Below, one piece after another: positions 2,613-39,722 of a DNA stretch of 41,742 nt (within the stretch, counting starts at the first letter, position 1; every line of letters starts with the position of its first letter). The notes beneath the pieces are model-generated. The model made no database searches. It saw only the letters and a list, made by a program, of their open reading frames with translations, and was not told the DNA's origin. Where the stretch lies: IMG/VR virus record IMGVR_UViG_3300032093_008073, positions 1 to 41,742 of that record; one strand, 5' to 3'. Position numbers and translations under genes: made by a program. The stretch is from a virus.

Positions 2613-3152
2613 CTATATTAGAGATATTATAATATTAGCAGTATCATTATTGATTGGTACTTTGAAATATTCAACTTCATATCTTTCCAGCATAGAAACA
2701 ATTTCTCTATCAATCTCCATACTTTCTTCTAAGTTTTGGAATCTACCATCAGCTTGATACATTGATGGTTCTCTTTCTAATACTATATTAAGAGAATCAT
2801 ATTGTTTGTGTAAATCAACAATAAATTCATCAAACTTATATCCATAAAACATTGAAGGATATTCTGGTTCTTCGTTGTACCTATCCTTATAGATTAATCC
2901 AAATAGAATTGGTGAATCAACAATGATGTAATCAACCTGTCCATAAAGACGAGAAATGTTACGATGTTGATTAGCCGTAATATAAAATTGGTCTTTAACC
3001 GCATATACATTTCTTTCCCATGCTTGTAATTTAGGAAACTCATAAGGCATCTCAACATTGTATCCTGCTTTTTTCATTTCATAATATAATCCTGCTGCTT
3101 GAGTGGATTTACCTATTGATGGTCCGCCAAATAAATTTATTATCTTACTCAC
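2613..3152 (-). CDS. P-loop nucleoside/nucleotide kinase-like protein, 179 aa
   Basis: Starts with a strand and a Walker A loop, FGGPSIGKST (residues 8-17), then helix, then MPYEFPK. A Walker B-like IIVDSPILF lies at about residues 75-83, where D-S-P resembles the DxxP/DRS motif of deoxynucleoside and thymidylate kinases and NadR-like AAA_28 proteins. A LEREPSMYQADGRFQ segment follows in the lid position. Size matches small phage kinases. It starts 4 nt inside the end of the CpeT-like gene, so the two form one operon. The substrate cannot be assigned from sequence alone. Confidence 0.7.
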   Translation of the reverse strand: MSKIINLFGGPSIGKSTQAAGLYYEMKKAGYNVEMPYEFPKLQAWERNVYAVKDQFYITANQHRNISRLYGQVDYIIVDSPILFGLIYKDRYNEEPEYPSMFYGYKFDEFIVDLHKQYDSLNIVLEREPSMYQADGRFQNLEESMEIDREIVSMLERYEVEYFKVPINNDTANIIISLI

Positions 3153-3754
3153 TTAGAAATCTTTTTATAAATGTAATGTCCTTTTGAACTTCCCCAAACT
3201 TGAATATCTTTATCATTCCATCCCCTTTCCCAACTATGAACAGCATCTTCATATACTAGAAAATCAGTTGTTGTATAAGTAGAACCTCTAAAAGTTGCCA
3301 CACATTTTTTATCATCAGTTTGTCCACCATATACTCCATCACCTCTTGAAATTATATTCAAATCACAACCGGGTTTTAATTTAATATCAGCAAGTGTAAT
3401 ATTCTTAATTGTTTCTGGTTTGAAGAAAGAATGTTTTGTAATATCATTTAGATAATATATTCTTAGTTTAATATAATCTTCAACCAATGCAATTTGATAA
3501 ACTCTTTGACGATATGGTACATAGTTTTTAGCTTCACCTTGCTCAGTATAAACCCAATAGATACCATTTACATCTTTACGAATTAACTTTGTATAAACTC
3601 TAACATCATCAAATGTAGAATCAGTTTTGTGTTGTTCGTAAGTTGAGAATGTACCTGTAATTCTTTTTACATACTCTTTCAAATCTTTTTTATCCATCTG
3701 TCCAAAAGAGTTAATGGACAGGAATACGAATAGTATTAATAGTAATTTTTTCAT
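3149..3754 (-). CDS. Secreted CpeT/CpcT-family protein, 201 aa
   Basis: A signal peptide (residues 1-18, ending NSFGQ) is followed by a domain with the CpeT/CpcT (DUF1001) signature in order: ITGTFSTYEQHKTDS, WVYTEQGEA with PYRQRVYQI (about residues 67-87), GCDLNI (about 128), CVATFRGSTYTT, then SWERGW and VWGSSKGHYIYK at the end. In cyanobacteria and cyanophages this family attaches bilins to phycobiliproteins; nothing else here suggests photosynthesis, so its role is unknown. It is first in a two-gene operon with the P-loop kinase and has a host-like promoter immediately upstream. Family assignment is confident, function is not. Confidence 0.82.
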   Translation of the reverse strand: MKKLLLILFVFLSINSFGQMDKKDLKEYVKRITGTFSTYEQHKTDSTFDDVRVYTKLIRKDVNGIYWVYTEQGEAKNYVPYRQRVYQIALVEDYIKLRIYYLNDITKHSFFKPETIKNITLADIKLKPGCDLNIISRGDGVYGGQTDDKKCVATFRGSTYTTTDFLVYEDAVHSWERGWNDKDIQVWGSSKGHYIYKKISK

Positions 3755-3837: not shown

Positions 3838-6800
3838 TTATTTGCCAAATGTGTAACGAATACCTAACTGAGCTGTCCACACATCAAATACTGAAGAATT
3901 GAATTGATATGTATCTTTAATCAAATAAGTACCGCTTGCATCTCTTTGAGTTGCTAATCTATATGTTGGAACGTTGTTAGCATCTCTACTTACAAAGTTC
4001 AACAATTGTGGGTTAGTTGCTCTTTGAGAAACACCCCATTTGTTATTCAACATATTTCCGAAGTTAAGAATATCTGCTCTGATTTGGAAAGCATTTCTCT
4101 TTCCACCAATCTTTACAAATACATCTTGTGCGATAGATAAATCAAATCTATGTAACATTGGTAAATCCAATGCGTTTCTTTCAGCGTATTGACCTCTACG
4201 AGTTGATAGGTAAGGGTCTTGAGCGATGAACTTATCAAAAGCCTCTTGTTGTTGAGCTTCAGTATAAGTTACCGCTGTTGCTCCACTACCTACGGTCAAT
4301 GGTGAGAAACGAATATCAGAACCTTTGTTTGGTACGAATACTAATTCATTGTTAGATACTCTATCACCATTCAAGTCACCAGCTACGATGTAAGAGAATG
4401 GATTATTTTGAGAACCTACATAACCTAAAGTGAATGTAGTTGCTCCACCATATTTCTTACCATAATCTAAACGATAACCCAATAAACCTACAATACGATT
4501 TCTTACTAAGTTTGAAGAAATTGATAATCCTAAATCATTGTTGTTAGTTGTAGATAATGCTGATTGCCAGCTACCACTTGCGATAGAACCTGCATCCATA
4601 AAGTCTTCAGCTTTTGCAGCCGTATAAGCTACATAACCCCAAAAACCTTTAGAGATTGGTTTTTCTAATTTGAATGTTGCTGAACGATTATAAGCCCCAT
4701 TTCTATTAGTTAATACCGCAGCCATTGATACGTTATCGTTTACTCTTACACCAGCATCAGTACCAGCGTAACGAGGTCTTGCATCAACACCACCTAATGT
4801 ACCAACAGGTGCATCTAAGTTAGCGTTATAATAATGAACTGCGTTAATTGTTTTGTTGTATAAAAATTCAGCACTAGCTACTAATCCAAACCAAGGTAAT
4901 TTTTGGTCAATTGCTAAGTTTGATTTCCAAACTTGTGGCATTTTGTAATTAGGGTCAGTTAATGCTAAATCAAATGTTGATGGTAACGTTGGAGTTGAAG
5001 GAATGAAATATTTGTTAGGGTCTGCAGTGAAACCATATTGTGCCGCTGCTGCACCACTCACATCAATAAATCCTGTCAACACACCATTGTTTCCAATTTG
5101 ATTAGAAAGGAACACATATGGAGGTCTACCAGTAAAGATACCACTACCACCTCTGATTTGTGTTTTCTTCTCACCTTTTACATCATAGTTAAATCCGAAA
5201 CGAGGTTCAAATAACAATTGATTTTTAGGAAGTACACTTGTATTCCACTTCTCACCACCAGCAAAAGTCATAGCTGAAATTGCTTTGTTTTCTAATGCTG
5301 TGTTTTCAATTGAAATAATGTTTGCTCTTAAACCAAAAGTTAATTTAAGGTTTTGAGTTGCATTATATTCGTCTTGAACATATAAATCTAAACGATTTGT
5401 TTTCAACACTTGCATTGGTTCAACTGCGCCAGTCAAAGCTGAATAACGGAATTGGAAACGAGCCGGTACAAATGTTGAAGGTGCACCACCATTTGCCAAT
5501 GATTGATTAGCTGCAGTGTAGAAATCTGCCAAGCTATTAAAGATGTAAACACCATTAGAAGCTGGGTAGAATAAGTTGTTTGATTGATATTTTTGGAAGT
5601 TAAAACCACCAACTAAAGTGTGTTTCTCCAAATATTTTGTAACGTTGTTTGTTACATTGAATGTCCAATAGTTCAACTTATTTGATGGAGTAAATGGGTC
5701 AAAACCTACCGAAGTATAAGTTGCTGAACCATCTCTAATATCAATAGTTGGGAACATTTGACTCATATAAGCTCTATCTTCAATTTGCTTATCGTAAGAA
5801 ACGATTAAGTTGTTAAATAAAGTGCTAGATAAATTTGAGTTCAATTCCAATACTGCTGAACGAGTATTATCTTGAATAATATAACCACTGTTCTTAAATG
5901 ACATTGCATTAAATTGAGTAGTTCTATTACCAGCTCCTGCTGATTGAGAGTTTGAAATATTAATCTCCGCTTCAGAATTATGGTGAACATAACGAGCAGT
6001 TAATTTGTTCTTATCGTTAATGTTCCAGTCAGTTCTAAGCAAAAACTTCTTAGAAGCATTTGTGTTAGAATAACCTTCCCAAGGGCCAGTCACATAATTG
6101 AATTTCTCTTTCATAAAATCAGAAAGAGCTTTCATATCAGCATATTTTACTCTACTGATTTGTGTACCCGTCAATGGTGAACCTTCTGAAATCCAGTTAG
6201 TACCCGGCTCAGTTCTTTCTATACTTTCGTAGTTACCAAAAATGAATAATTTGTTTTTGATAATTGGCGCACCTAATCTAAAACCTTGTACTTTCTCATC
6301 AAACTTAGCCGCAGTTACGGTAGTTCCTCTTGCGTTATCACCAACATAAGTTGATGAATTGTTTCTTTGAGTTTGATAAACACTACCTTCAATTTCATTT
6401 GAACCGGAACGAGTTACCGCATTGATACCTGCGCCTGTGAAACCACTTTGGCGAATATCAAATGGTGCAACGTTCACCTGCAATTGGTCAATCGCATCTA
6501 ATGAAATGGCTGAAGCACCAGTTCTACCACCCGCTTGTGCGGAAGAACCTAAACCGAAATTGTTATTGAATTGAGAACCATCAATTGTGAAGTTATTCAA
6601 ACGAGAGTCTTGTGCTCCGAAAGAGTTACCACTACCAAATGGATTGTACTTTGTGATACCATCAATAGTTCTAGCTCCTGTAATCGGAATTGTAGTTAAT
6701 TCTCTACGTCCGAATTGTTGTGCAGCACCAGTTTTTTCTTTTGAGAAAATACCATACTTGTTTGCTGATACAACTACTTCTTTCAATTGTACTGCTTCTT

Positions 6801-7131
6801 CAACCAATACAAATTCTACGTTTTCGGTTAAACCTAAAGATGTATTAATTTCTTTAAGTTCACCTTTCTTAAATCCTACGAATGAAGCGTGGATTGTGTA
6901 AGGTCCACCAACCCTAACCGCTGGAATCACAAACACACCACTCTTATTGGTAACTGAATAATAATTCGTACCAGTTGGGTTGTGTGTTGCATGAATCGAA
7001 GCGCCAGGGATAGTTTCTCCCTTCTGGTTTTTAACCACACCAGAAATGTTTGAGGTTGTGATTTGCGCAAACCCCATAAACGCTGTTGTCATAAATAACA
7101 ACATCATTAACATTGCTTTTTTCATGTGCAT
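3838..7131 (-). CDS. TonB-dependent receptor (Oar/carboxypeptidase-regulatory type), 1097 aa
   Basis: Outer-membrane TonB-dependent transporter. A signal peptide (MKKAMLMMLL to GFAQ, about residues 3-23) precedes a carboxypeptidase-regulatory-like beta-sandwich (about 25-110, SGVVKNQKGETIPGASI). Next come the LKEVVVSA linker, a plug domain with NNFTIDGSQFNNNFG and GGRTGASAISLDAIDQLQV, and a long barrel ending in AQLGIRYTFGK. The layout matches Bacteroidota Oar-like receptors. The substrate is unknown. ATG at 7131 or 7125 are both possible; the second gives a cleaner signal peptide. The gene follows a 40-aa leader ORF and a terminator hairpin. A full-length, intact receptor gene in a phage is very unusual. 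Confidence 0.93.
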   Translation of the reverse strand: MHMKKAMLMMLLFMTTAFMGFAQITTSNISGVVKNQKGETIPGASIHATHNPTGTNYYSVTNKSGVFVIPAVRVGGPYTIHASFVGFKKGELKEINTSLGLTENVEFVLVEEAVQLKEVVVSANKYGIFSKEKTGAAQQFGRRELTTIPITGARTIDGITKYNPFGSGNSFGAQDSRLNNFTIDGSQFNNNFGLGSSAQAGGRTGASAISLDAIDQLQVNVAPFDIRQSGFTGAGINAVTRSGSNEIEGSVYQTQRNNSSTYVGDNARGTTVTAAKFDEKVQGFRLGAPIIKNKLFIFGNYESIERTEPGTNWISEGSPLTGTQISRVKYADMKALSDFMKEKFNYVTGPWEGYSNTNASKKFLLRTDWNINDKNKLTARYVHHNSEAEINISNSQSAGAGNRTTQFNAMSFKNSGYIIQDNTRSAVLELNSNLSSTLFNNLIVSYDKQIEDRAYMSQMFPTIDIRDGSATYTSVGFDPFTPSNKLNYWTFNVTNNVTKYLEKHTLVGGFNFQKYQSNNLFYPASNGVYIFNSLADFYTAANQSLANGGAPSTFVPARFQFRYSALTGAVEPMQVLKTNRLDLYVQDEYNATQNLKLTFGLRANIISIENTALENKAISAMTFAGGEKWNTSVLPKNQLLFEPRFGFNYDVKGEKKTQIRGGSGIFTGRPPYVFLSNQIGNNGVLTGFIDVSGAAAAQYGFTADPNKYFIPSTPTLPSTFDLALTDPNYKMPQVWKSNLAIDQKLPWFGLVASAEFLYNKTINAVHYYNANLDAPVGTLGGVDARPRYAGTDAGVRVNDNVSMAAVLTNRNGAYNRSATFKLEKPISKGFWGYVAYTAAKAEDFMDAGSIASGSWQSALSTTNNNDLGLSISSNLVRNRIVGLLGYRLDYGKKYGGATTFTLGYVGSQNNPFSYIVAGDLNGDRVSNNELVFVPNKGSDIRFSPLTVGSGATAVTYTEAQQQEAFDKFIAQDPYLSTRRGQYAERNALDLPMLHRFDLSIAQDVFVKIGGKRNAFQIRADILNFGNMLNNKWGVSQRATNPQLLNFVSRDANNVPTYRLATQRDASGTYLIKDTYQFNSSVFDVWTAQLGIRYTFGK

Positions 7132-7749: not shown

Positions 7750-8100
7750 ATGAGACAAACTGACCAAAAAGCCTTAGATTACCTAAAAAGTAACCCTATT
7801 GTAGCTAAATTTATTGAAAAATTGGATAAAGAACGTAAAGAGTATTACGAAAAAGCCAATATGCCGAATCAATACAAACCGGTAGTGGTTGAAATTGGTA
7901 CAAAATTCATCAGAATATGGCATGGTACATCTTGTTGGGGATTTATCAGCCGAGTTGATGGTGATTTGAAAGGTTCACCAATTAAAAAGGGTGATTTGTT
8001 GAAAGCAGCTACTTGGAAAGCTCCAGCAAAGCACGCTAGAGGTAACATTATTGATGGAACTGCTCAATATGGTGTGTATGGGCCGGAATATCTTAAATAA
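7750..8100 (+). CDS. Hypothetical phage protein, 116 aa
   Basis: Soluble protein with a charged N-terminal helix (residues 4-36) and a compact beta-like core, PVVVEIGTKFIRIWHGTSCWGFISRVDG (about 44-71), then GSPIKKGDLLKAATWKAPAKHARGNI. Conservation-like density of Gly/Trp suggests a folded small domain, but I do not recognise a family. It is 4 nt upstream of the helicase and is likely cotranscribed with it. Confidence 0.75.
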   Translation: MRQTDQKALDYLKSNPIVAKFIEKLDKERKEYYEKANMPNQYKPVVVEIGTKFIRIWHGTSCWGFISRVDGDLKGSPIKKGDLLKAATWKAPAKHARGNIIDGTAQYGVYGPEYLK

Positions 8101-8104
8101 TTAA

Positions 8105-9481
8105 ATGGAATTAAGACCGAATCAAATAGAACCTGTAAAAAAGGGTGTGGAATTCTTTCAAAGTAAGAAGCCGCACCCTTCTATCATTGTTGCTCCTACC
8201 GCATTTGGTAAAAGTATCGTTATTGCTGAAATAGCTCATCGTTTAGGTGAGAAAATATTAGTTATTCAGCCTTCAAAAGAATTATTGGAGCAAAACTACA
8301 ACAAATTCATCAATTTAGGCGGAAAAGCATCAATTTACTCCGCATCTATGAATGAAAAGGAGATTGGTGATGTAACTTATGCTACAATTGGTTCAATTGT
8401 TAATATAGCTTGGAAATTTTACGAATTAGGTATCAGAAAAGTGATTATAGATGAGTGTGACCGTTTTCCAAGGGAGCCGGATGGTATGTTAAGGAGATTT
8501 TTAACGGCAGCTAAGATAACTCACGTATTAGGATTAACCGCAACTCCACTTAAACTACAAGCTAACTTAGACCAATGGGGCCAACCTTTCTCAAAATTGG
8601 TAATGCTTACTTCAAAGAGTAAAAAAGGTAATTTCTTTAGAGATATTATTCACGTTGCCCAAATTAAGGAGATGTGTGATATGGGATTTTGGTCACCATT
8701 GAAATATGAATCATACGATTTTGAAACTGGTGATTTAGTTTACAATTCTAATAAGGCGGATTATACGGATGATAGTATTAAGAGGGCTTACAAGCAGCAA
8801 GATATTGGTGGAAAGATAATTAAAAGGATTTCCGAATTACCCGAAAGAAAATCTATTCTAATTGCCGTACCTTCTATTGATGAAGCAAAAGAATTGTCCA
8901 CTCGCTTACCAAGTTGTGAAGCAATCTTTAGCGGAATGCCAGATGCGGACAGAGATAGGATTATTTCAGATTTCAAAAGTGGCAAATTGAGAATAGTTGT
9001 TCAGGTTACTATTCTTTCGGTAGGATTTGACCATCCGCAGTTAGATTGTATCATTACGGGAAGACCTACGGCATCTTTAAGTTGGTGGTATCAGTTTGTG
9101 GGTAGAGTAACTCGTATCCATCCTGAGAAGCTAAATGGGCTTGTAATTGATTTTGTGGGTAGTGTACCAAAGTTCGGAAAGGTAGAAGATTTATACTTTG
9201 ATTACGAAGAACCACTATGGAAATTATACGGAGAAGGTAAAAAGTTATTAACAGGAATTCCACTTCACGAAATAGGATTGCATAAACAAGGACAACCAGA
9301 CCCACATACATTAGCCGCTCAAGGGCCTGTTATTAAAATGAGTTTTGGAAAGTACAAAGATGTGGAAGTTCGTAAAATACCGGGCTATTATCGTAATTGG
9401 TTGTTGGATAATATAAAATGGAACGCCTACAATAAACATATACAAACCGAATTACAAAGGTTGAAGAATATAGGAATCTAA
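8105..9481 (+). CDS. SF2 DNA/RNA helicase with C-terminal DUF3820-like domain, 458 aa
   Basis: ATP-dependent superfamily 2 helicase of the phage/RadD-like type. Q-motif RPNQIEPV (residues 4-11), Walker A APTAFGKS (30-37), motif II DECD (about 117-120, replacing DEAD/DEAH), motif III GLTATP (about 143-148), a second RecA lobe with VTILSVGFDHP, and motif VI QFVGRVTR (about 330-337). The last 50 residues carry SFGKYKDVEVRKIPGYYRNW, the FGKYKG-type small domain seen in DUF3820 and exonuclease-X C-termini. Likely acts in replication fork or recombination processing, as UvsW does in T4. Its operon begins with two small proteins. Confidence 0.9.
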   Translation: MELRPNQIEPVKKGVEFFQSKKPHPSIIVAPTAFGKSIVIAEIAHRLGEKILVIQPSKELLEQNYNKFINLGGKASIYSASMNEKEIGDVTYATIGSIVNIAWKFYELGIRKVIIDECDRFPREPDGMLRRFLTAAKITHVLGLTATPLKLQANLDQWGQPFSKLVMLTSKSKKGNFFRDIIHVAQIKEMCDMGFWSPLKYESYDFETGDLVYNSNKADYTDDSIKRAYKQQDIGGKIIKRISELPERKSILIAVPSIDEAKELSTRLPSCEAIFSGMPDADRDRIISDFKSGKLRIVVQVTILSVGFDHPQLDCIITGRPTASLSWWYQFVGRVTRIHPEKLNGLVIDFVGSVPKFGKVEDLYFDYEEPLWKLYGEGKKLLTGIPLHEIGLHKQGQPDPHTLAAQGPVIKMSFGKYKDVEVRKIPGYYRNWLLDNIKWNAYNKHIQTELQRLKNIGI

Positions 9482-23085: not shown

Positions 23086-23742
23086 ATGCAATACATTAAA
23101 TCTCAGGTTTTGAACTTAAAAGAGTTTTTGTTCAAAGCGTTTCTTACTGGTGTGCTTACCTTCATAGGTTTAGCATTCCTGTTCCAAGTTTTTATGGTGT
23201 TCTTAACCTTCTCAGGTAATGAACAACTAATTGACAAAATTACACACGAACTAACAATTCGTTTTGATGGCAGGTTTTCCGATAATCCTGCGAACATTAA
23301 TTACCAAGCCGAAGACCACATTTGGGTTGAAGGTGTAGACAACCAAGTTAAAATTGGTAAGCTAGCCGGCAATAGAAATTTGGCATTTGGTGTTAAAAAT
23401 ATCTTAGAGGAATTCCTTCAAGAAAAAGGATATGACCTAAATGAAAATGCACAATATAAATTAAAAGTTAATATTGTGTATTTGGATGTTCTATCTACAA
23501 AGACAAACATTTCAGTATTCCATAAAGGAGAAGAAGAAGTGGTTGTTCGTTTACAGGGAATACTTTACAAAGATGGCAAAAAAGAAAAAGAAGTTGTAGT
23601 TGAAGAATCTTCATCTGAAATATCAATGTCCACACTTATTGTAGACCAGGGTGGTAAATTCAATCAAACTTCATTATCTAACGCACTTAAAAAAGCATCG
23701 GATAAGTTGATTACTAAGCTATTCGGTGGAAAAGCAAAATAA
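23086..23742 (+). CDS. Membrane-anchored periplasmic protein, 218 aa
   Basis: An N-terminal membrane anchor (about residues 15-39, FLTGVLTFIGLAFLFQVFMVF) is followed by an alpha/beta domain (AFGVKNILEEFLQEKGYDLNENAQYKLKVNIVYLDVL, about 102-138) and a C-terminal helix SNALKKASDKLITKLFG. The layout resembles envelope lipoprotein-like or CsgG/LpoB-type domains, but I cannot assign a family. It is 1 nt upstream of the first exported cohesin/dockerin-type protein and likely works with that block. Confidence 0.7.
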   Translation: MQYIKSQVLNLKEFLFKAFLTGVLTFIGLAFLFQVFMVFLTFSGNEQLIDKITHELTIRFDGRFSDNPANINYQAEDHIWVEGVDNQVKIGKLAGNRNLAFGVKNILEEFLQEKGYDLNENAQYKLKVNIVYLDVLSTKTNISVFHKGEEEVVVRLQGILYKDGKKEKEVVVEESSSEISMSTLIVDQGGKFNQTSLSNALKKASDKLITKLFGGKAK

Positions 23743-23743
23743 T

Positions 23744-25402
23744 ATGAAAAGAATATTAACCTTAGTAGCGGCAGTTTTAATAAGCTTTGCAGCAAAAGCT
23801 CAAATAATTGTCAACCAATCAGTTTCAGCAGGACCTTATAGAGTAGGGGATACAATCACTGTAACTTATACGGTAGATAAGGGAACAACTAAGCCACGTT
23901 ATTTTTGGTTAAGATATGACTACAATAATAAGGCTTTAACTTATGTTTCCACAACCTTCTCACAGGGTAATCAATCACAAACTTATTACACAAGTTGGAA
24001 CAACTATAAGTTTACTGCAGCTGCAAACATCGCAGATACATCTTTATATGCACAATATGGCTCTACACCTTGGGGATATGCTGTAAACAACGATTGGAAT
24101 GTTGGACAGATTGCAGTTCAAAGAGTAGACCAAAGCGTAAATGGTGTAGTGGCAACTCAAAAGTATATTCTTAAAGACCAAAACACTTATGCTGGTATTT
24201 TTAAGTTAAACCTATCTTACGCAACTGATAGTGCTAGTGGAGCAAATATTCCATTCATTAGAACAACAGCTGGTCCAACAACAATAACTGGTGTAACTGG
24301 TAATACTTCTTATTTCAAAGTAAGAGTTCTATTCCCTTCTGGATATAACATTGGTGACCATAACGTTCAATTAATGAGATTAAAAACCGATGGTACTGGT
24401 GATATAGATTGGTCACAACAACCTATTGCACAAAGAGCATTAGATGGTAGTGGTGAAGCAATATTTACATCAGGTATCAGAGTTGGTGATAGTTTAGGCG
24501 TATTTGTAGCAAATGCATCATCTAAGACTTGGATGAATAATGTGGTGACTGTATCTGATGCATATAAATCATTCTTAGGTATTTCACAAACTGATTTAAG
24601 TGGTAACACTACTTACTTCACAAGACCAAACTTAGAAAAGAAAGTTGGTAATATTACTAAGAACGATGCCGTATTTACTGAAGCAGATGCATACTATTCA
24701 TTTGCGCATGTAATGGGAGTTGATGTATCAGCAAACGCTTTCATTCCAACTTCTACCGCAACTTCTTGGAGATGGCATAGTGGTTTATTAAATCAAAGTT
24801 GGTTAGATGGTACTTCAAAATATAGAGTTTATGTGACACAACCTACACAAACTGTAGATGCTGTATTCGCATGGGGTGGTGACTTAGATTGGTCACATTC
24901 ATCTCATCCTGATACAATCGCATCAAGAATAGCAGCTGGTATCTTTACTAATAAATCAAACGATTTAACAATTGGTGAAATTAAAACTATGGCTATGACA
25001 TCTAATATGAGTAACTCTTATAATGAGTCTGTATTAGAAGAAGTTAAATTGGGTGTAGCATCTACAATACAAAATGGTAAAGTAGTTCTTACCACAAACT
25101 TAACTAAAGAAGGTTTAGCAGGTTTGCAAGTTATTATGAACTACGATTCAACAAAATTAGATTTGGAAAATATCATATTTGATTCTGGTTCAACTATCAC
25201 AAACTTCTCAACAAAGGATAATGGTAGATTGACATTTGGTTCTATTGACCAACAAAAGACAGCTAGAATCAAAACTGGTACTCCATATAAATTAATATTT
25301 AATCCAAAAGTTCCATTAAGCAACACTGCAGGTTTATTCTTCTTTGTGTTAGCCGATGCGGTAGATGCTAATGGAAAGAAAGTAGAACTTGTAATTGAAT
25401 AA
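23744..25402 (+). CDS. Exported protein with dockerin-like and cohesin-like modules, 552 aa
   Basis: The signal peptide (residues 1-20, ending AAKAQ) is preferred from ATG 23744. An N-terminal beta domain (about 21-130, GPYRVGDTITVTYTVDKGTT with YFWLRYDYN) resembles cohesin-like folds. A VTVSDAYKSFLG helix (about 267-278) and ITKNDAVFTEADAYYSFAHV (about 303-322) form a dockerin-like unit. DLDWSHSSHPDTI (about 383-395) and a final cohesin-like beta sandwich (about 429-552, GLAGLQVIMNYDSTKLDLEN) follow. The last 290 residues are paralogous to the end of the next protein. Likely a cell-surface or envelope adhesin/scaffold. Confidence 0.78.
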   Translation: MKRILTLVAAVLISFAAKAQIIVNQSVSAGPYRVGDTITVTYTVDKGTTKPRYFWLRYDYNNKALTYVSTTFSQGNQSQTYYTSWNNYKFTAAANIADTSLYAQYGSTPWGYAVNNDWNVGQIAVQRVDQSVNGVVATQKYILKDQNTYAGIFKLNLSYATDSASGANIPFIRTTAGPTTITGVTGNTSYFKVRVLFPSGYNIGDHNVQLMRLKTDGTGDIDWSQQPIAQRALDGSGEAIFTSGIRVGDSLGVFVANASSKTWMNNVVTVSDAYKSFLGISQTDLSGNTTYFTRPNLEKKVGNITKNDAVFTEADAYYSFAHVMGVDVSANAFIPTSTATSWRWHSGLLNQSWLDGTSKYRVYVTQPTQTVDAVFAWGGDLDWSHSSHPDTIASRIAAGIFTNKSNDLTIGEIKTMAMTSNMSNSYNESVLEEVKLGVASTIQNGKVVLTTNLTKEGLAGLQVIMNYDSTKLDLENIIFDSGSTITNFSTKDNGRLTFGSIDQQKTARIKTGTPYKLIFNPKVPLSNTAGLFFFVLADAVDANGKKVELVIE

Positions 25403-27981
25403 TGAGAATATTATTAACACTATTATTATCTTTAATTGTATCTTTAGGGTTTGGTCAGCAGGTAAATGCACCAGACCCTAAAGAGTTTACGGTAAACACA
25501 TCTGCACAAAATGCAAGCGGTTTTAGTTTAAGTGGATTTAATTCTACTGATGTTTTACTATGTGCTATTGGTTTACCTGTTGCTCCAACTGGAACTACGT
25601 TTTACATAACAACTACAACGGGTCTTACCGCATCCATTGGATATACTTTGACCGGTAATAAAACTCGTTTAACTTTTACGGGTACTCAAGCTAACATTAA
25701 CAACGCATTAGCATCTCTAAAAGTAAACACAACAGGTACCGCAGGTAATGTTCAAATATCGGTATCTGCAACTGTAAACCCAACTGGATATTTTTATCTT
25801 CCAACAAATGGACACTTTTATAGACCAATATCAACCGGTGTGTTTTATTCACAATCTAAAATAAACGCAGCTGCAACAACATTCAAAGGGCAAAGAGGGT
25901 ATTTGGTAACTATAACTTCTTCAGATGAGGATTTATTTATTTTTAATAATGTACCACAATCTAACATATGGTTTGCATTAACGGATTCAATAACCGAAGG
26001 AACTTGGAGAATAGATGATGGACCTGAAAAAGGTACTATCGTAAGAATAGGTACAACAAATCAGCAAGGTGTTTATAACAATTGGGCAGGTGGTGAACCA
26101 AATAACTGGGGTGGAAACGAAGATTATGCGGTAACTAAATGGGGTGGTTCTCAATGGAACGATTTGAATTCTAACTATAATAATCCGTATGTAATTGAGT
26201 ATGGAACATGGACAAATCCTGATGACCAAACTTTTACTGAATTCTACAATAATAGTGTTATTAATACAAATGGACCTAACTTAAATTTGGTAGGTCAATT
26301 TAATTTTAACTTTGGTGGTAATATTGATGAAACTAAATTTTTAGGAACGATATTCAAAAGAAACAACTCCACATCGGCATGGACGGGAAATACATATAAA
26401 ACATTAAATGGTTTAGGTAGAGTAACTCTTTCTGAACAATTAGATACTGCAAAACTATTTTCATCTGCAATATCAATAGCAACCGCAAATGATATGACTG
26501 CATATAGTGAAACCGATATAGGTAAGATATACAAAATGACCATAACAGGTAATACAGGTGGTACAATTTGGGGAACAAACATATACACAAACGATTCATA
26601 TATTCCAAAAGCAGCTGTGCATGCTGGGGTAATAACTGCCGGACAAACAAAAGATGTTTACATTAAAATAGTTGAGGGATTAAATGATTATCCAGCATCA
26701 ACACAAAATGGTGTAACATCAGATAGTTGGGGAGCATGGGGATTGAGTTATCAATTTGTAAACGAACCATCATCCTACAAAGCAACCATAACAACTGGAC
26801 AAGCAGAATTTTCTTATGTTAATATTTCAAATGGTGTTACAACTCTTTATATTGATTTAACTAGATTTGGAAGTACACAACCATCAACAATATCTAAAGT
26901 TAAAATATTGGATTGTTATGATGGGCCTGTAACATATCAACAAACATCTGCATATTGGGCACATTATGTTGTTCCATCAACACTTACAAAAGTTACCGAT
27001 GGAACTTCGGCATTTAATTCATCAATAAGAAATGCTGGAAATAATAATTGGGCTTTTATGTCTAATATTTCTTTTGCACAAAATGGTACTTACAAACAAC
27101 ATAAATTCCAATTTCAAAATTATGATTCAGTACAACTTAAAACACTTTACAATAGTATAGTTACTGTATCGGATGTTTATTTAGCATTTAAGGAATTGGC
27201 AGAAGCTGGTGGTATATTTGGTGGTGGTAGTGGAACGCAATTCACTTATGGTATGCAATTCAAAAATGCGGATATTGATGATAATGGTGTATTCAATGAA
27301 GCGGATTGTTTTAGATTATTACAAAACTTAACAGGTGCTAAAAACTTAGTGGATAACTACACATTGGATAATACAATGAAAATAGTTTTAGATTCAACTT
27401 ATGCAACTATTGGTAAATCTAATTGGAAAGATTTTCCATCTTATTTAGGTAAAGAGTATGGATTCAGTTTATTGGATGGTAAAATAAATTACACATACAA
27501 TTTAGCAGTAACTTGGAAAGGTGATGTAAACTTATCACACTCAGCAACTCCACCTTCAAATGGTATAACAACAATGTCAGCAAACTTTGGTGAAAGAAGT
27601 ATGAGTGTAAATGGTGAACCAACTGCATATATTATCTCGCAAATAGTTGGAGATAGTTTAATTGCAACTATTAAATTCAATCCAAATATAAATTCTATTG
27701 TTGGTACTCAATTCCAAATAAATTATGATAACTCTTTAATTACGTTATCTTCAACAAAATACAAAACAACAGGCTCACCTATAAACTTCGCAAATGATAG
27801 AGGAACATTTATTAATTTAGGTTCTCTTAATACTGGTGGTGAATTATTAGATGGTACTACCGAATATCAACTTACGTTCAAATTAAAACAACAATTGGAT
27901 AACTCTTTAGGTTTGGTTTCTATTGCTGGAAACGAAGCGGTAAATAAAGATGGTAAAACTATTAAAATAAGAATACAATAA
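25402..27981 (+). CDS. Exported C-type-lectin protein with dockerin-like and cohesin-like modules, 859 aa
   Basis: A signal peptide (1-18, SLGFGQ) is followed by a beta domain (about 20-125). A C-type lectin-like domain spans about 128-270: YSQSKINAAATTFKGQRGYLVTI, then IWFALTDS, NWAGGEPNNWGGNEDYAV with the carbohydrate-binding EPN triad, and WNDLNSNYNNPYVIEYG. The middle is beta-rich and unassigned. The C-terminal part repeats the neighbour's plan: VTVSDVYLAFKEL (about 590), DIDDNGVFNEADCFRLLQNL (about 624-643, an F-hand/dockerin calcium loop), VTWKGDVNLSHS, and a cohesin-like domain (about 735-859). Probably binds glycans at the host surface. Coupled to its neighbours by TAATG. Confidence 0.85.
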   Translation: MRILLTLLLSLIVSLGFGQQVNAPDPKEFTVNTSAQNASGFSLSGFNSTDVLLCAIGLPVAPTGTTFYITTTTGLTASIGYTLTGNKTRLTFTGTQANINNALASLKVNTTGTAGNVQISVSATVNPTGYFYLPTNGHFYRPISTGVFYSQSKINAAATTFKGQRGYLVTITSSDEDLFIFNNVPQSNIWFALTDSITEGTWRIDDGPEKGTIVRIGTTNQQGVYNNWAGGEPNNWGGNEDYAVTKWGGSQWNDLNSNYNNPYVIEYGTWTNPDDQTFTEFYNNSVINTNGPNLNLVGQFNFNFGGNIDETKFLGTIFKRNNSTSAWTGNTYKTLNGLGRVTLSEQLDTAKLFSSAISIATANDMTAYSETDIGKIYKMTITGNTGGTIWGTNIYTNDSYIPKAAVHAGVITAGQTKDVYIKIVEGLNDYPASTQNGVTSDSWGAWGLSYQFVNEPSSYKATITTGQAEFSYVNISNGVTTLYIDLTRFGSTQPSTISKVKILDCYDGPVTYQQTSAYWAHYVVPSTLTKVTDGTSAFNSSIRNAGNNNWAFMSNISFAQNGTYKQHKFQFQNYDSVQLKTLYNSIVTVSDVYLAFKELAEAGGIFGGGSGTQFTYGMQFKNADIDDNGVFNEADCFRLLQNLTGAKNLVDNYTLDNTMKIVLDSTYATIGKSNWKDFPSYLGKEYGFSLLDGKINYTYNLAVTWKGDVNLSHSATPPSNGITTMSANFGERSMSVNGEPTAYIISQIVGDSLIATIKFNPNINSIVGTQFQINYDNSLITLSSTKYKTTGSPINFANDRGTFINLGSLNTGGELLDGTTEYQLTFKLKQQLDNSLGLVSIAGNEAVNKDGKTIKIRIQ

Positions 27982-31650: not shown

Positions 31651-32379
31651 ATGAAAAAATTATTCGTATTATTAAGTATATTGTTGATTACGAGTGGTGT
31701 GGGTGTCCTACATGCTCAAACAATAGGAAAAACTAAAACTGAAGATTTCAAAGCAGATTTTGAAAAGAAAAAAGATATATCTGCATATTTGGATTATGAA
31801 GGTCCAAAGAAAAATATCCAAATCCTTAAATGTGGTATTGGTGAAGAAGTGTACGAAATGTACCCTGAATTAAAAGAAAAGAGAGTAGGATTGGGTGTTG
31901 CAAATATCGTATTAGAATATTTGGATAACCTTAATCGTTTTGAATTTACCGAAGATAAGACTGAAATTAAAAATAGAATGGTGCAACAATTCAAAGCATC
32001 AAACGCTGGTATTTCCGAAAACAAAATTGAAGGTAGAGGAAAGATTAAATTGGCACATTACTTTGTAGAGATTGAAGTATATGATTATTCAGTATCAGAA
32101 GATGAAACTATTAACTTAAAAGATGGTATCAAAGATAACTTAGTAACTCGTTTAGGTTTACAGGTTAGATTTACAAATGCTGAGAATGGTTCAATCATCG
32201 CAGCATCTGGTTTGGGTGAAGCTAAAACAAATAGAGAACTTACTTTACTTTCTGATGCAACTGTGGACCCAATTAAATTCAACCAATCTACAATTAGTAT
32301 TTCAACTAAGAAAGCATTGGATATAGCTTGTGCAAACATTTTGGACAAGATGATTAAAAAGGGTGTATTTGAAAAATAA
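31651..32379 (+). CDS. Exported CsgG-like protein, 242 aa
   Basis: A signal peptide (residues 1-23, ending LHAQ) precedes a domain with the CsgG-family order: conserved N-strand (IQILKCGIGEEV), a VGLGVANIVLEYLDNLNRFEFTEDKTEI (about 77-104) matching 'G-x-x-x-x-x-L-x-x-L-x-x-x-x-x-F-x-v-v-E-R', then IEGRGKIKLAHYFVEIEVYDYS (about 125-146), LGLQVRFTNAENGSIIAASG (about 166-185), and the final helix ALDIACANILDKMIKKG. CsgG proteins form outer-membrane secretion pores; this one lacks an evident lipobox. Assignment is by pattern. Coupled by TAATG to a capsid-targeted protein gene. Confidence 0.62.
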   Translation: MKKLFVLLSILLITSGVGVLHAQTIGKTKTEDFKADFEKKKDISAYLDYEGPKKNIQILKCGIGEEVYEMYPELKEKRVGLGVANIVLEYLDNLNRFEFTEDKTEIKNRMVQQFKASNAGISENKIEGRGKIKLAHYFVEIEVYDYSVSEDETINLKDGIKDNLVTRLGLQVRFTNAENGSIIAASGLGEAKTNRELTLLSDATVDPIKFNQSTISISTKKALDIACANILDKMIKKGVFEK

Positions 32380-33250: not shown

Positions 33251-33309
33251 AGAAACGCTTTCATAGTTATTGGGGAACTAACCTAAAATAACTTTATGAG
33301 AGCGTTTCT
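33251..33309 (+). promoter_or_regulatory. Hairpin covering the start codon of the second TonB receptor
   Basis: AGAAACGCTTTCATA (33251-33265) pairs with TATGAGAGCGTTTCT (33295-33309): fifteen pairs, fourteen Watson-Crick and one U-G, with a 29-nt loop. The right arm includes the ATG at 33296. T-rich coding sequence follows, so it could block initiation or end the upstream transcript. Confidence 0.75.
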
Positions 33310-35548
33310 TTTATTTCTGTTACTACCTTTATCAACATTTTCGCAAGATACATTATTTAACAAAGTCCTTTCAGAAGTGACTGTAAAATCTGCCGGTCAA
33401 AGGATAACCGAAGCATCCATTGTAAGAAGTATTCGTAATTCAAATGTAGTATCCGATGGATTATCAGTTGAGTTTATTAAAAAAACACCCGATAGAACCG
33501 TTGGTGATGCACTTAAAAGAGTAAGCGGTGTTACTATTCAAAACGATAAGTTTGTATTGGTAAGAGGATTAGCAGACCGTTACAATTCTGCTATGTTAAA
33601 TAAAACTCTACTGCCATCAACCGAACCAGATAGGAGAGCATTTTCATTTGATATAATTCCTACATCCCTAATTGATAATATAATCATAGCTAAATCAGCT
33701 TCAGCAAATCTACCTGGTGATTGGAGTGGTGGATTGGTGCAAGTTTCTACAAAAGAAGTTTCCAACAATTTTTTCAATATCTCATTGGGAAGTGGTTGGG
33801 GTTCGGTTTCATCTCTTAAAGATTTTAAGTTAGTTCAAGCTACTGAATTTCCTTCCACATTCCCATCCACTTATCGTTTCCGAATAAGCCCAAACATTGA
33901 AAGGAGAGCATTTACAAAGTTAATAGGTTCACCAACAACCGAAGGGTTTACATCTCCACTTAATACAAATGGAGCACTTTCATTTGGATATAAGAAGGGT
34001 AAGTTTAATGCTTTACTTAGTTCTACAATACGAAACTCATTCAATCTAAACTATATTGAAAGAACTGATTATCAATCTTCAACTGAATTGGCATACGATT
34101 ACAAAGATACACTTTACTCAAAAAGATTTCAAGCAAATGGATTACTTAACTTAACTTATTTGGGTGAAAACCGATATAGTTGGAAAACATTAGTAAGTTA
34201 TCAAACTGATGACTCGTATATGAATAGAGTTGGTGAGAACTATGATAATGTTCAGAATGTATTAAGTAATTCTTCTAATCATATCCGCAACTTTGTTCTT
34301 AATTCACAATTAGACGGTAAGATTAAGACATGGGATTTTAATGTAGGATATAATTTTATTTTTAGAGAACAACCTGATTATAGAGTTAATCCAATTACAA
34401 AATCATTGGGTGTAAACGAACCATATGCAACCGCATGGAGAGACACATATCGTTTCTGGTCAATTATGGATGAGAACGGAATGAATGGTAACATTAACAA
34501 AGATTTTGGTAAGATAAAAGTTGGTGGTGGTTATCTAAAAAAGATTAGAGGATTTAACGCAAGAGTTTTTAGATATACCGCAGTTGATATGTTGGATGAA
34601 ATAACAAACAACACCGATAGATACACCGCAGATTTTGATTTAGGTAATGGTTATGTAATGTATGATGGTGAGTGGGGTAAATGGAAATTGAATAGTGGAT
34701 TGAGAACTGAATATAATATCTTTAGAGTTAATACATCTGATTTTAGCGGAATACAAATAAATGTAGATAGAGAGTATTTGGATTTGTTACCTTCATTAAA
34801 TCTTTCATACAACGAAGAAAAAAGTAAGTATAGATTTTCAATGAGTAAAACATTAGCAAGACCTGAATTTAGAGAAGTGGCTAATTTTGCTTATTATGAT
34901 TTTGTAAGAAACGCACAATTATTGGGTAATTCAAATCTTAAAAAATCTGACATCTATAATGTAGACCTTAAATGGGAATACTATCCATCAAATAAAGAAA
35001 GTATATTCATTTCTGCGTTTGGTAAAAACTTTGTAAATCCAATTGAACAAATAGTAGCGGATGGTTCAGTTCCTTCCAATCTTCTTTTAACTTACACAAA
35101 TCCAAAACAAGCAACAATATATGGTGTAGAATTGGAAATCAGAAAAAAGATAAATGGTTGGTTTGATTTTTATACAAACACTTCGGTAATGAATTCGCAA
35201 GTAAATGCAAATGGAATTAGAAGACAATTGCAAGGACAATCAAACTATGTTATTAATTCTGGTATAAACATACATAAGAAAAATGAAACATTAAATATTT
35301 CATATAATAGAGTTGGAGATAGAATATCAGCAGTTGGTTTCCAAGGTTACTCTGATATTTTTGAAAACGCTAGAGATGTAATAGATATTGTGTTTCTACA
35401 TAAATTAAAAAAAGGAGAACTTAAATTTGCGGTAGCAGATATACTTGCACAACCATCGGTTTATTATCAAAAGTTACAAACAAAACGAAATTTGATAAAA
35501 ACAAACAACGAACAAACAATTTCATTAACATTAAATTTAACACTATGA
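33296..35548 (+). CDS. TonB-dependent receptor, 750 aa
   Basis: A signal peptide (1-17, STFSQ) is followed by LSEVTVKSAGQRI, the TonB-box-side linker, and a plug domain (about 45-155) with DRTVGDALKRVSGVTIQ, FVLVRGLADRYNSAMLNKTLLP, AFSFDIIPTSLIDNIII and GGLVQVSTKEV. The barrel then runs to a C-terminal ISLTLNLTL. It lacks the carboxypeptidase-regulatory domain found in the first receptor. Substrate unknown. The ATG lies in a strong hairpin, and the next gene, a beta-helix lipoprotein, overlaps its stop by 4 nt, as Bacteroidota transporter-lipoprotein pairs do. Confidence 0.93.
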   Translation: MRAFLLFLLLPLSTFSQDTLFNKVLSEVTVKSAGQRITEASIVRSIRNSNVVSDGLSVEFIKKTPDRTVGDALKRVSGVTIQNDKFVLVRGLADRYNSAMLNKTLLPSTEPDRRAFSFDIIPTSLIDNIIIAKSASANLPGDWSGGLVQVSTKEVSNNFFNISLGSGWGSVSSLKDFKLVQATEFPSTFPSTYRFRISPNIERRAFTKLIGSPTTEGFTSPLNTNGALSFGYKKGKFNALLSSTIRNSFNLNYIERTDYQSSTELAYDYKDTLYSKRFQANGLLNLTYLGENRYSWKTLVSYQTDDSYMNRVGENYDNVQNVLSNSSNHIRNFVLNSQLDGKIKTWDFNVGYNFIFREQPDYRVNPITKSLGVNEPYATAWRDTYRFWSIMDENGMNGNINKDFGKIKVGGGYLKKIRGFNARVFRYTAVDMLDEITNNTDRYTADFDLGNGYVMYDGEWGKWKLNSGLRTEYNIFRVNTSDFSGIQINVDREYLDLLPSLNLSYNEEKSKYRFSMSKTLARPEFREVANFAYYDFVRNAQLLGNSNLKKSDIYNVDLKWEYYPSNKESIFISAFGKNFVNPIEQIVADGSVPSNLLLTYTNPKQATIYGVELEIRKKINGWFDFYTNTSVMNSQVNANGIRRQLQGQSNYVINSGINIHKKNETLNISYNRVGDRISAVGFQGYSDIFENARDVIDIVFLHKLKKGELKFAVADILAQPSVYYQKLQTKRNLIKTNNEQTISLTLNLTL

Positions 35549-36741
35549 GAAAATTATTAGGACTTATTTTAATCTTAGGATTATTCAGTTGCGAAAAAAA
35601 TTTAGGTGGATATGAACCGCCTGTAAATGTTCCCCTTTCAACAACATTAAGTGGAACATACAAAGAAACTATCACACTAACCGCAGATAAAGTGTGGATA
35701 TTAAAAGGATATGTTTATATCACAAATGGTTCACAATTAAGAATTCAACCGGGTACAAAGATTGTATCTGATGTTGCTGAAAAGGGTGCATTGTGTATCG
35801 AAAGAGGTGCACAAATAATTGCGGAAGGAACTGCACAAAAGCCAATCGTATTTACATCAGGAAAACCAGATGGTGAGAAAGCACCTGGTGATTGGGGTGG
35901 TATTGTAATATTGGGTATAGCTCCAACTAATAGAACATCAGAACCAACTATTGAAGGTGGTATTGGTAGACCTTATGGTGGTACACTACCTGCTGATAAT
36001 AGTGGTGTTCTAAAATATGTAAGAATTGAATACGCTGGAATCGCAGCAATGCCAAACTCCGAAATTAACGCACTAACATTGGGTGGTGTTGGTAGTGGAA
36101 CAATCATTGAGAATGTTCAAACTATTTACGCTAACGATGATGCATTTGAATTTTTTGGTGGAACTGTAAATGCTAAAAACTTATATGCATTCGCAACCGC
36201 AGATGATGATTTTGACTTTGATTTTGGATATACTGGAACTATTACAAATGGTGTGGCAAAGAGAGACCCACAATTTGTAGATAACGGAGATGCTGGAAAT
36301 GGTATTGAGTGTGATAACGATGGAACAGGTTCAACCGCAACTCCATATACACATCCAAAACTATTCAATATGATTTTAGTTGGACCTAATACCTCAACTG
36401 CATTAGCAAACCATAACTTAGGTTTAAGATTTAGGAGAGGGACTCAATTCACAATGAAGAATAGTGTAATTTGGGGATGGATGAAAGGTGGATTGAGTTT
36501 AGAAAGTAATGAAACAGCACAATTCGTAAAAGATGGTGTTTCTGTATTTGAAAACAATTCAGTAGGAACATTTAATCCTACCCTAAACTTTATCAGTAGA
36601 GCAACCACAATTTTAACAAATGAACAACTTAAAACTTTAGCATTAGGTAAAGGTAATAAGGAAATAGATGTGGTAATACCTGAATTAGATAAACCAATAT
36701 GGGTTAATGGATGGACTAGATTTCCAACAAAAGGTAATTAA
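35545..36741 (+). CDS. Beta-helix lipoprotein paired with the TonB receptor, 398 aa
   Basis: Lipobox GLFSC with Cys16. The mature protein is a right-handed parallel beta-helix type sequence: LKGYVYITNGSQLRIQPGTKIV (about residues 52-73), GALCIERGAQIIAEGTAQKPIVF, DWGGIVILG, ALTLGGVGSGTIIENVQTIY, and DDAFEFFGGTVNAKN (about 194-208). Such lipoproteins frequently follow TonB-dependent receptors in Bacteroidota and are thought to sit on the receptor as a surface or substrate-binding partner. ATGA overlap with the receptor means translational coupling. A terminator fused to a late-type box follows. Confidence 0.86.
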   Translation: MRKLLGLILILGLFSCEKNLGGYEPPVNVPLSTTLSGTYKETITLTADKVWILKGYVYITNGSQLRIQPGTKIVSDVAEKGALCIERGAQIIAEGTAQKPIVFTSGKPDGEKAPGDWGGIVILGIAPTNRTSEPTIEGGIGRPYGGTLPADNSGVLKYVRIEYAGIAAMPNSEINALTLGGVGSGTIIENVQTIYANDDAFEFFGGTVNAKNLYAFATADDDFDFDFGYTGTITNGVAKRDPQFVDNGDAGNGIECDNDGTGSTATPYTHPKLFNMILVGPNTSTALANHNLGLRFRRGTQFTMKNSVIWGWMKGGLSLESNETAQFVKDGVSVFENNSVGTFNPTLNFISRATTILTNEQLKTLALGKGNKEIDVVIPELDKPIWVNGWTRFPTKGN

Positions 36742-39065: not shown

Positions 39066-39722
39066 ATGAAAAAATTTGTTAATTTCAAAAACATTGCCAT
39101 TGCCGCATTGGTAATTTGGATTTTATTACAATGGTTTAACCCAGGTGGAGTTATGCCAGGCGGAAGAACTATCAGAATTGATGGTAAAAAATACGAAGTT
39201 ATAAAACATACGATAGATACTGTTGAAGTAGAGAAAGTAAAAGTAGTTACTAAGAAAGGAAAAGATATTGTACATGAAGTAATTGATGTAGATACTTTAG
39301 TACTTAAAGAAATGATAAATGTAGATAGTGCAGCAATCCTTAAAGATTACTTAGCAAAGATTGTTTACAAAGATACCCTAACTTTAGATGGTGGATTGGG
39401 AACTATTGCATTAACGGATACTATCACAAAGAATAGAATATTAGGTAGAACTTGGGATGCTAAAGTAAAAGAAAGAATCATCAAAGAAGAACTTATTGTT
39501 AAAGAACCTGCAAAAGCACAACTTTATTATGGTTTGAATGCTGGGTTTAACAAAGAAGATTATGTATCTGCAGTTGGAGCTGGTTTAATCTTAAAAACTA
39601 AAAAAGATAAAATTTATCAATTTGGTTTAGGTGTAAACAATAGAACTACTGATGGAACTAATGGTTCATTCTCACCTTATGTTGGATTTGGTACTTATTG
39701 GAAAATTAAAGTTAAAAAATAA
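39066..39722 (+). CDS. Membrane-anchored protein with C-terminal beta domain, 218 aa
   Basis: N-terminal anchor (about residues 9-22, IAIAALVIWILLQWF), a charged middle rich in Val/Lys/Glu (TIDTVEVEKVKVVTKKGKDI), and a C-terminal beta segment (YYGLNAGFNKEDYVSAVGAG, then FGLGVNNRTTDGTNGSFSPY and VGFGTYWKIKV) resembling the end of small barrel or spanin-like proteins. No family recognised. TAATG overlap couples it to the first capsid-targeted gene of the cluster. Confidence 0.7.
   Translation: MKKFVNFKNIAIAALVIWILLQWFNPGGVMPGGRTIRIDGKKYEVIKHTIDTVEVEKVKVVTKKGKDIVHEVIDVDTLVLKEMINVDSAAILKDYLAKIVYKDTLTLDGGLGTIALTDTITKNRILGRTWDAKVKERIIKEELIVKEPAKAQLYYGLNAGFNKEDYVSAVGAGLILKTKKDKIYQFGLGVNNRTTDGTNGSFSPYVGFGTYWKIKVKK

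Follow-up and report, generated by a model that had tools for sequence, protein, structure and literature searches.

The window analysed here, a linear IMG/VR virus fragment of 41,742 nucleotides, contains three minus-strand genes in an operon layout: an Oar-type TonB-dependent receptor, followed by a CpeT-family protein and an AAA kinase. The receptor gene ends 83 bases upstream of the CpeT gene, whose stop codon lies in a 4-base overlap with the kinase gene. A conserved flank, divergent from these three genes, served to recognise the corresponding genomic slot in other phages.

3838–7131, minus strand: Oar-type TonB-dependent receptor of 1097 amino acids, first gene of the operon (PF25183, 1.5e-52; PF13620, 1e-16)
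3149–3754, minus strand: CpeT/CpcT-family (DUF1001) calycin with a signal peptide (PF06206, AlphaFold2, Foldseek)
2613–3152, minus strand: AAA_28/NadR-like P-loop kinase, 'thymidylate kinase' in PHROG (PF13521, 7.7e-9; phrog_2107, 1.6e-13)
7750–9481, plus strand: conserved flank with a 116-aa protein and a RadD-like helicase

The CpeT ORF is intact, starts with ATG and encodes 201 amino acids; the plus strand of the same interval is full of stop codons. A sequence-only reading had placed this interval in the CpeT/CpcT family without giving the strand, and the profile search agreed: PF06206 (CpeT) was the single Pfam match, with E=4.4e-32 and a score of 111.8 bits (cut-off 21), and it spanned profile positions 3–181 of 181. 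The ORF also matched PHROG_488, 'CpeT-like antenna protein' (1.8e-10), and among PDB sequences CRUMPLED LEAF (CRL) 6lix (2.4e-9) and CpcT 4o4o (9.5e-8). All of the signature motifs that had been quoted are present (EQ at 71–72, PYRQRVY at 80–86, GC at 129–130, SWERGW at 174–179 and VWG at 186–188), as is the signal peptide. At the N-terminus, MKKLLLILFVFLSINSFGQ forms a clear signal peptide of the Bacteroidota type (..SFGQ), which is probably cleaved between ..SFG and Q19. Signal peptides are kept in the CpeT proteins of three other phages, found at loci L002 (in contig G001) and L003 (in G002) and in genome G528. CpeT is under purifying selection (dN/dS 0.16–0.32), and between the window and L002 it evolves faster than the neighbouring genes (dN/dS 0.24 versus 0.07–0.10). 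A chance motif as the source of the CpeT call is ruled out by the profile match, the fold and this conservation.

An AlphaFold2 model of CpeT, built from five sequences, reached a pLDDT of 85.5. In Foldseek it matched bilin-bound CpcT (4o4s, E=1.5e-10, TM 0.79), CRL (6lix, 0.71–0.73) and 5hi8 (TMt 0.79). All five matches with E<0.001 belong to the CpeT family (CRL, CpcT in its phycocyanobilin-bound and free forms, and the CpeT of phage P-HM1), with all others far behind. The model thus predicts the calyx-shaped beta-barrel of CpcT in the window protein. The pocket of CpcT contains rotating arginines. Alignment with CpcT placed E71, Q72, P80, R82, R84, C130, C151, R177, W187 and G188 of the window protein at family positions. 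Of these, R82, R84, R177, E71 and Q72 are candidate pocket or rim residues in the sequence comparison with CpcT and CRL, and they align with CpcT. Structure prediction had been proposed as a way to see whether the bilin pocket is kept; it recovered the CpcT-like fold, and the sequence alignment suggests that the candidate pocket residues are kept. As the only two cysteines in the three window-type CpeTs and in the G528 CpeT are the family pair (C130 and C151 in the window), a periplasmic disulfide between them is plausible.

Co-transcription of CpeT with the P-loop kinase had also been proposed, and the gene layout supports it, as the genes overlap and the receptor–CpeT–kinase order is kept at L002 and L003. 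Naming the kinase as the partner was incomplete, however, because the receptor upstream had been overlooked. This receptor (hereafter OMP) comprises a CarboxypepD_reg domain, a TonB-box-like LKEVVVS, a plug-like region and an OMP_b-brl_4 barrel, and among plasmid-borne TonB-dependent receptors (TBDTs) its nearest match is one from Bacteroides, at 35% identity. No Pfam Plug match was found in it, and its AlphaFold2 model has low confidence (pLDDT 55.9), leaving the plug region unresolved. At L003 the kinase (8615–9163) is only 50% identical to that of the window and the upstream OMP and helicase genes are 81–95% identical; a possible explanation is allelic replacement of the kinase inside a kept operon.

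Searches seeded with the OMP and with the neighbouring helicase yielded 118 viral loci; the window, G001 and G002 alone have CpeT at this slot. Nine relatives carry another OMP subtype (type B) at the same slot with the kinase directly after it and no CpeT, and at three loci outside this slot (L098, L101 and L111) the kinase directly follows an OMP of the window type, again without CpeT. This suggests that the OMP and the kinase form the older pair, into which CpeT looks to have been inserted as an accessory gene. Phage-borne Oar-type receptors are commoner than CpeT: they were found at 38 viral loci (window 3838–7131; L081–L118), in two subtypes and several contexts. The sole full-length OMP match in INPHARED, 32% identical, lies in an unannotated human-faecal 'Bacteriophage sp.' record (MT837825.1, 2520–5648).

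The shared operon with an Oar-architecture TBDT raises the question of whether CpeT is its cargo, reaching the periplasm and then being secreted through the receptor to act outside the cell, for example by binding a ligand or blocking a receptor. Oar of Myxococcus xanthus is required for the secretion of PopC (PMC6434023), and fast evolution relative to neighbouring genes, as seen for CpeT, is frequent in surface-exposed factors. The same OMP nevertheless occurs without CpeT in many phages, the G528 CpeT has no adjacent OMP, and we found no evidence of secretion by this OMP, so we consider the cargo role improbable.

Over ~36 kb the window is syntenic with G001, a 160-kb T4-like contig, with 73% identity for CpeT, 91% for the OMP and 93% for the kinase. 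G001 encodes UvsX, DnaB, PolB, a clamp loader, a ligase and tail fibres, and larger relatives contain the T4 major capsid protein gp23; these genes rule out a host-derived contig. Judged by its DNA polymerase, the nearest isolate is Mel-JY01, a reported Microcystis phage (52%), which shares the gene set only in part and has no CpeT or OMP match. All eight recognisable SPase-I sites have Q at +1. Shine-Dalgarno-like sites precede 3 of 47 window genes and 3 of 183 G001 genes, versus 52 of 202 in Mel-JY01. Neither PsbA/PsbD nor a phycobiliprotein (PF00502) was found in the window and nine related phage records. The Oar architecture dominates in Bacteroidetes (PMC6434023). Taken together as indirect evidence, the signal-peptide sites, the rarity of Shine-Dalgarno sites, the Bacteroides-like Oar-type receptor and the absence of these photosynthesis genes make a non-photosynthetic member of the Bacteroidota the most likely host, in line with the earlier presumption of a non-photosynthetic host. 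A signal peptide in a phage of such a host suggests that CpeT acts in the envelope.

These observations bear on whether CpeT could be a classic cyanophage lyase that attaches bilins to phycobiliproteins in a cyanobacterial host, with a misleading signal peptide. CpeT, heme oxygenase (HO) and ferredoxin-dependent bilin reductase (FDBR) are known cyanophage auxiliary genes, and the affinity of the DNA polymerase to Mel-JY01 would agree with such a host. The cleavage sites, the Shine-Dalgarno counts, the Bacteroides-like receptor and the missing photosynthesis genes argue against it, as do the type of bilin reductase and the best tree described below, and we regard a cyanobacterial host as very improbable. 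A lyase role is in itself unlikely, because CpeT carries an export signal and the substrate is absent from the phage records.

Genes for bilin synthesis were found in relatives of the window phage; the window contig itself does not cover the corresponding region.

88084–89221 of G001 (8084–9221 of L017), minus strand: HO and PcyX-like FDBR (PF01126, PF05996)
9178–9864 of L202 (G528): CpeT with a ..FGYSQ signal peptide, 36% identical to the window CpeT, at a different locus

In G001 the HO gene (PF01126, 2.9e-14) overlaps the FDBR gene (PF05996, 1.3e-20), and the best PDB match of the latter is PcyX (5owg, 7.5e-19). The reductase keeps E51, H62 and D79, which align with E76, H88 and D105 of PcyA. 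Phages, though not cyanophages, have been reported to encode PcyX (PMC13193486). Searches with PF05996 found FDBR in G001 and three of nine other records, and in 4 of 20 records of a second set. At least 14 loci in large Bacteroidota-type phages hold the pair, and in all 14 FDBR loci examined HO lies directly upstream and overlaps. G528, a 271-kb genome of the same phage group, contains both a second secreted CpeT and the HO–FDBR cassette. CpeT lies outside the HO–FDBR operon. Among records longer than 100 kb, both of those with CpeT carry FDBR, compared with 5 of 15 without CpeT, a difference that is suggestive but not significant (Fisher p=0.15); seen from the other side, five of the seven long FDBR-bearing records lack CpeT. 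The claim that the window protein is unrelated to phycobiliproteins is fair, given the lack of PF00502 in the ten records, but the HO–FDBR cassettes in G001 and G528 weaken any extension of it to bilins in general.

Together, these results lead us to a reading in which CpeT is an exported calycin that binds a bilin or related tetrapyrrole as part of a phage bilin/heme module, and we would give it about an even chance of being right. During infection, HO and the PcyX-like ferredoxin-dependent reductase would turn host heme into a bilin, with PEB as the assumed product; that the window phage itself has the cassette is suggested by G001, its closest CpeT-bearing relative. Both of these enzymes depend on ferredoxin and are cytoplasmic, whereas CpeT is exported, and a transport step between them is missing from the module. 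CpeT would be a lipocalin-like calycin in the periplasm or facing the outer membrane, with the bilin or a related tetrapyrrole as its putative ligand. It may hold the pigment or hand it over in the envelope, rather than to a phycobiliprotein, and gene order suggests a link to the Oar-type receptor of the same operon. The phage might benefit through release of heme iron while the pigment is discarded or exported, through sequestration, through an extracellular signal or shield, or through loading of an envelope protein. The simplest reading of the sequences would be that the old calyx property of the CpeT family, the holding of a linear tetrapyrrole, has been kept in an envelope without phycobiliproteins. 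The more extensive proposal, that large T4-like Bacteroidota phages carry a full bilin pathway together with an exported CpeT carrier and a TonB receptor, working outside the cytoplasm and apart from photosynthesis, is tentative and somewhat doubtful.

The main rival is a structural role like that proposed for plant CRL, in which the calycin would no longer take part in bilin chemistry and would instead aid outer-membrane biogenesis, here by assisting or stabilising the Oar-type receptor. The window protein is nearer to CRL (1.2e-19) than to CpcT (1.8e-14) in profile comparison, and its gene lies directly downstream of the OMP gene. CRL itself is located at the plastid outer envelope, and plastid division depends on it in plants, which have no phycobiliproteins (PMC2408579); secreted CpeTs occur in bacteria that lack phycobilisomes. 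However, relatives keep the same type of OMP without CpeT (L098, L101 and L111), or type B at the nine slot loci, which indicates that the receptor does not need CpeT. The G528 CpeT is encoded elsewhere, with no adjoining OMP, and the presence of HO–FDBR in the CpeT phages would have to be a coincidence. A CRL-like role is, on balance, unlikely.

To place the window protein within its family, we compared it with bacterial and cyanophage members. It is 20–28% identical to the CpcT/CpeT lyases. In the tree, the three window-type CpeTs form their own clade (support 100/99), which is joined by the G528 protein (93/92). The best tree separates this phage clade from the cyanophage CpeT and CpcT proteins, although a union of the two was not rejected (AU p=0.28), so the phylogeny that had been suggested as a check points to a clade of its own that may still join the cyanobacterial one. 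Wider viral scans with distant CpeT seeds returned nothing, and DNA-pattern matches at two loci (L079 and L080) had no CpeT ORF. Among bacteria, CpeT-family proteins were found in 3 of 299 sampled Pseudomonadota genomes and in 32 of 248 genomes of one Gammaproteobacterial order; the proteins among these that we read mostly have a signal peptide or lipobox. No conserved neighbourhood was found for the secreted CpeTs of the Gammaproteobacteria, which are non-photosynthetic. In one genome (G244, L067 5066–6841) the secreted CpeT gene directly follows a gene recognised by eye, which we take to be hemE, encoding uroporphyrinogen decarboxylase; this arrangement is not conserved in other genomes. That the family has a wider role, here in the periplasm, is compatible with the export signal. 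The idea itself is not new, given plant CRL (PMC2408579) and the uncharacterised CpeT homologues reported from non-photosynthetic organisms in 2008 (PMC2327270). In the part of the journal literature covered, we found no account of heterotroph-infecting phages that encode a secreted CpeT.

This 41-kb phage fragment encodes about a dozen proteins that are secreted or sit in the envelope. A second TonB-dependent receptor (33296–36741, plus strand; Plug and OMP_b-brl_3) is followed, with a 4-base overlap, by a lipoprotein (..FSCEK). This looks like a phage-carried receptor-plus-lipoprotein pair, and it recurs next to the OMP at another locus (L090). C-type lectin and LCCL domains are present in a secreted protein of 859 aa (25402–27981, plus strand); the gene before it (23726–25402) encodes another secreted protein, which has a weak cohesin-like match. 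Six small plus-strand ORFs (at 32379, 32731, 39996, 40343, 40657 and 41278) share the N-terminus MI[KSL]L..IL.E, for which 0.005 are expected from shuffled N-termini, and an ORF at 39722 (MIKLTQINEAS) is a near match. By analogy with the capsid-targeting sequences of T4 that are cut by the prohead protease, these ORFs are candidates for head-packaged, injected proteins.

CpeT in phages has previously been read as a cyanophage photosynthesis gene, whereas here it is exported by probable Bacteroidota phages. An 'antenna protein' annotation in viromes can thus mislabel phages of heterotrophs as cyanophages. The system also bears on the purpose of bilin synthesis by non-cyanobacterial phages, and on the function of plant CRL and of the CpeT-family proteins of non-photosynthetic organisms.

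Several known systems resemble parts of this locus. The window CpeT shares the family profile, the calycin fold (TM 0.79) and the EQ, PYR, GC, second-cysteine, RG and WG motifs with the CpcT/CpeT lyases (Nostoc CpcT, 4o4o/4o4s; cyanophage 5hi8, S-PM2 and S-WAM2). Unlike these, it is exported, has a Bacteroidota-type host without phycobiliproteins, shares its operon with genes for an Oar TBDT and a kinase, and forms its own clade. Arabidopsis CRL (6lix/6liy) is of the same family, matches the profile better than any other solved structure (1.2e-19) and works at an outer-envelope membrane in an organism without phycobiliproteins (PMC2408579). It is, however, eukaryotic and plastid-bound, and it lacks the second family cysteine in the alignment, whereas the window protein has both. 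The HO–PcyX cassette known from phages other than cyanophages (PcyX EBK42635, 5owg; Pelagibacter phage Mosig EXVC030M) likewise has adjacent, overlapping HO and FDBR genes in this order, in a T4-like phage and, for Mosig, with a heterotrophic host. Mosig has no CpeT match in INPHARED; in contrast, the relative of the cassette-bearing G001, part of a large group of Bacteroidota type, exports CpeT. Finally, Myxococcus Oar (PMC6434023) resembles the phage receptor in its CarboxypepD_reg domain, TonB-box-like motif and beta-barrel, but the receptor described here is carried by phages, at 38 viral loci and in several genomic contexts.
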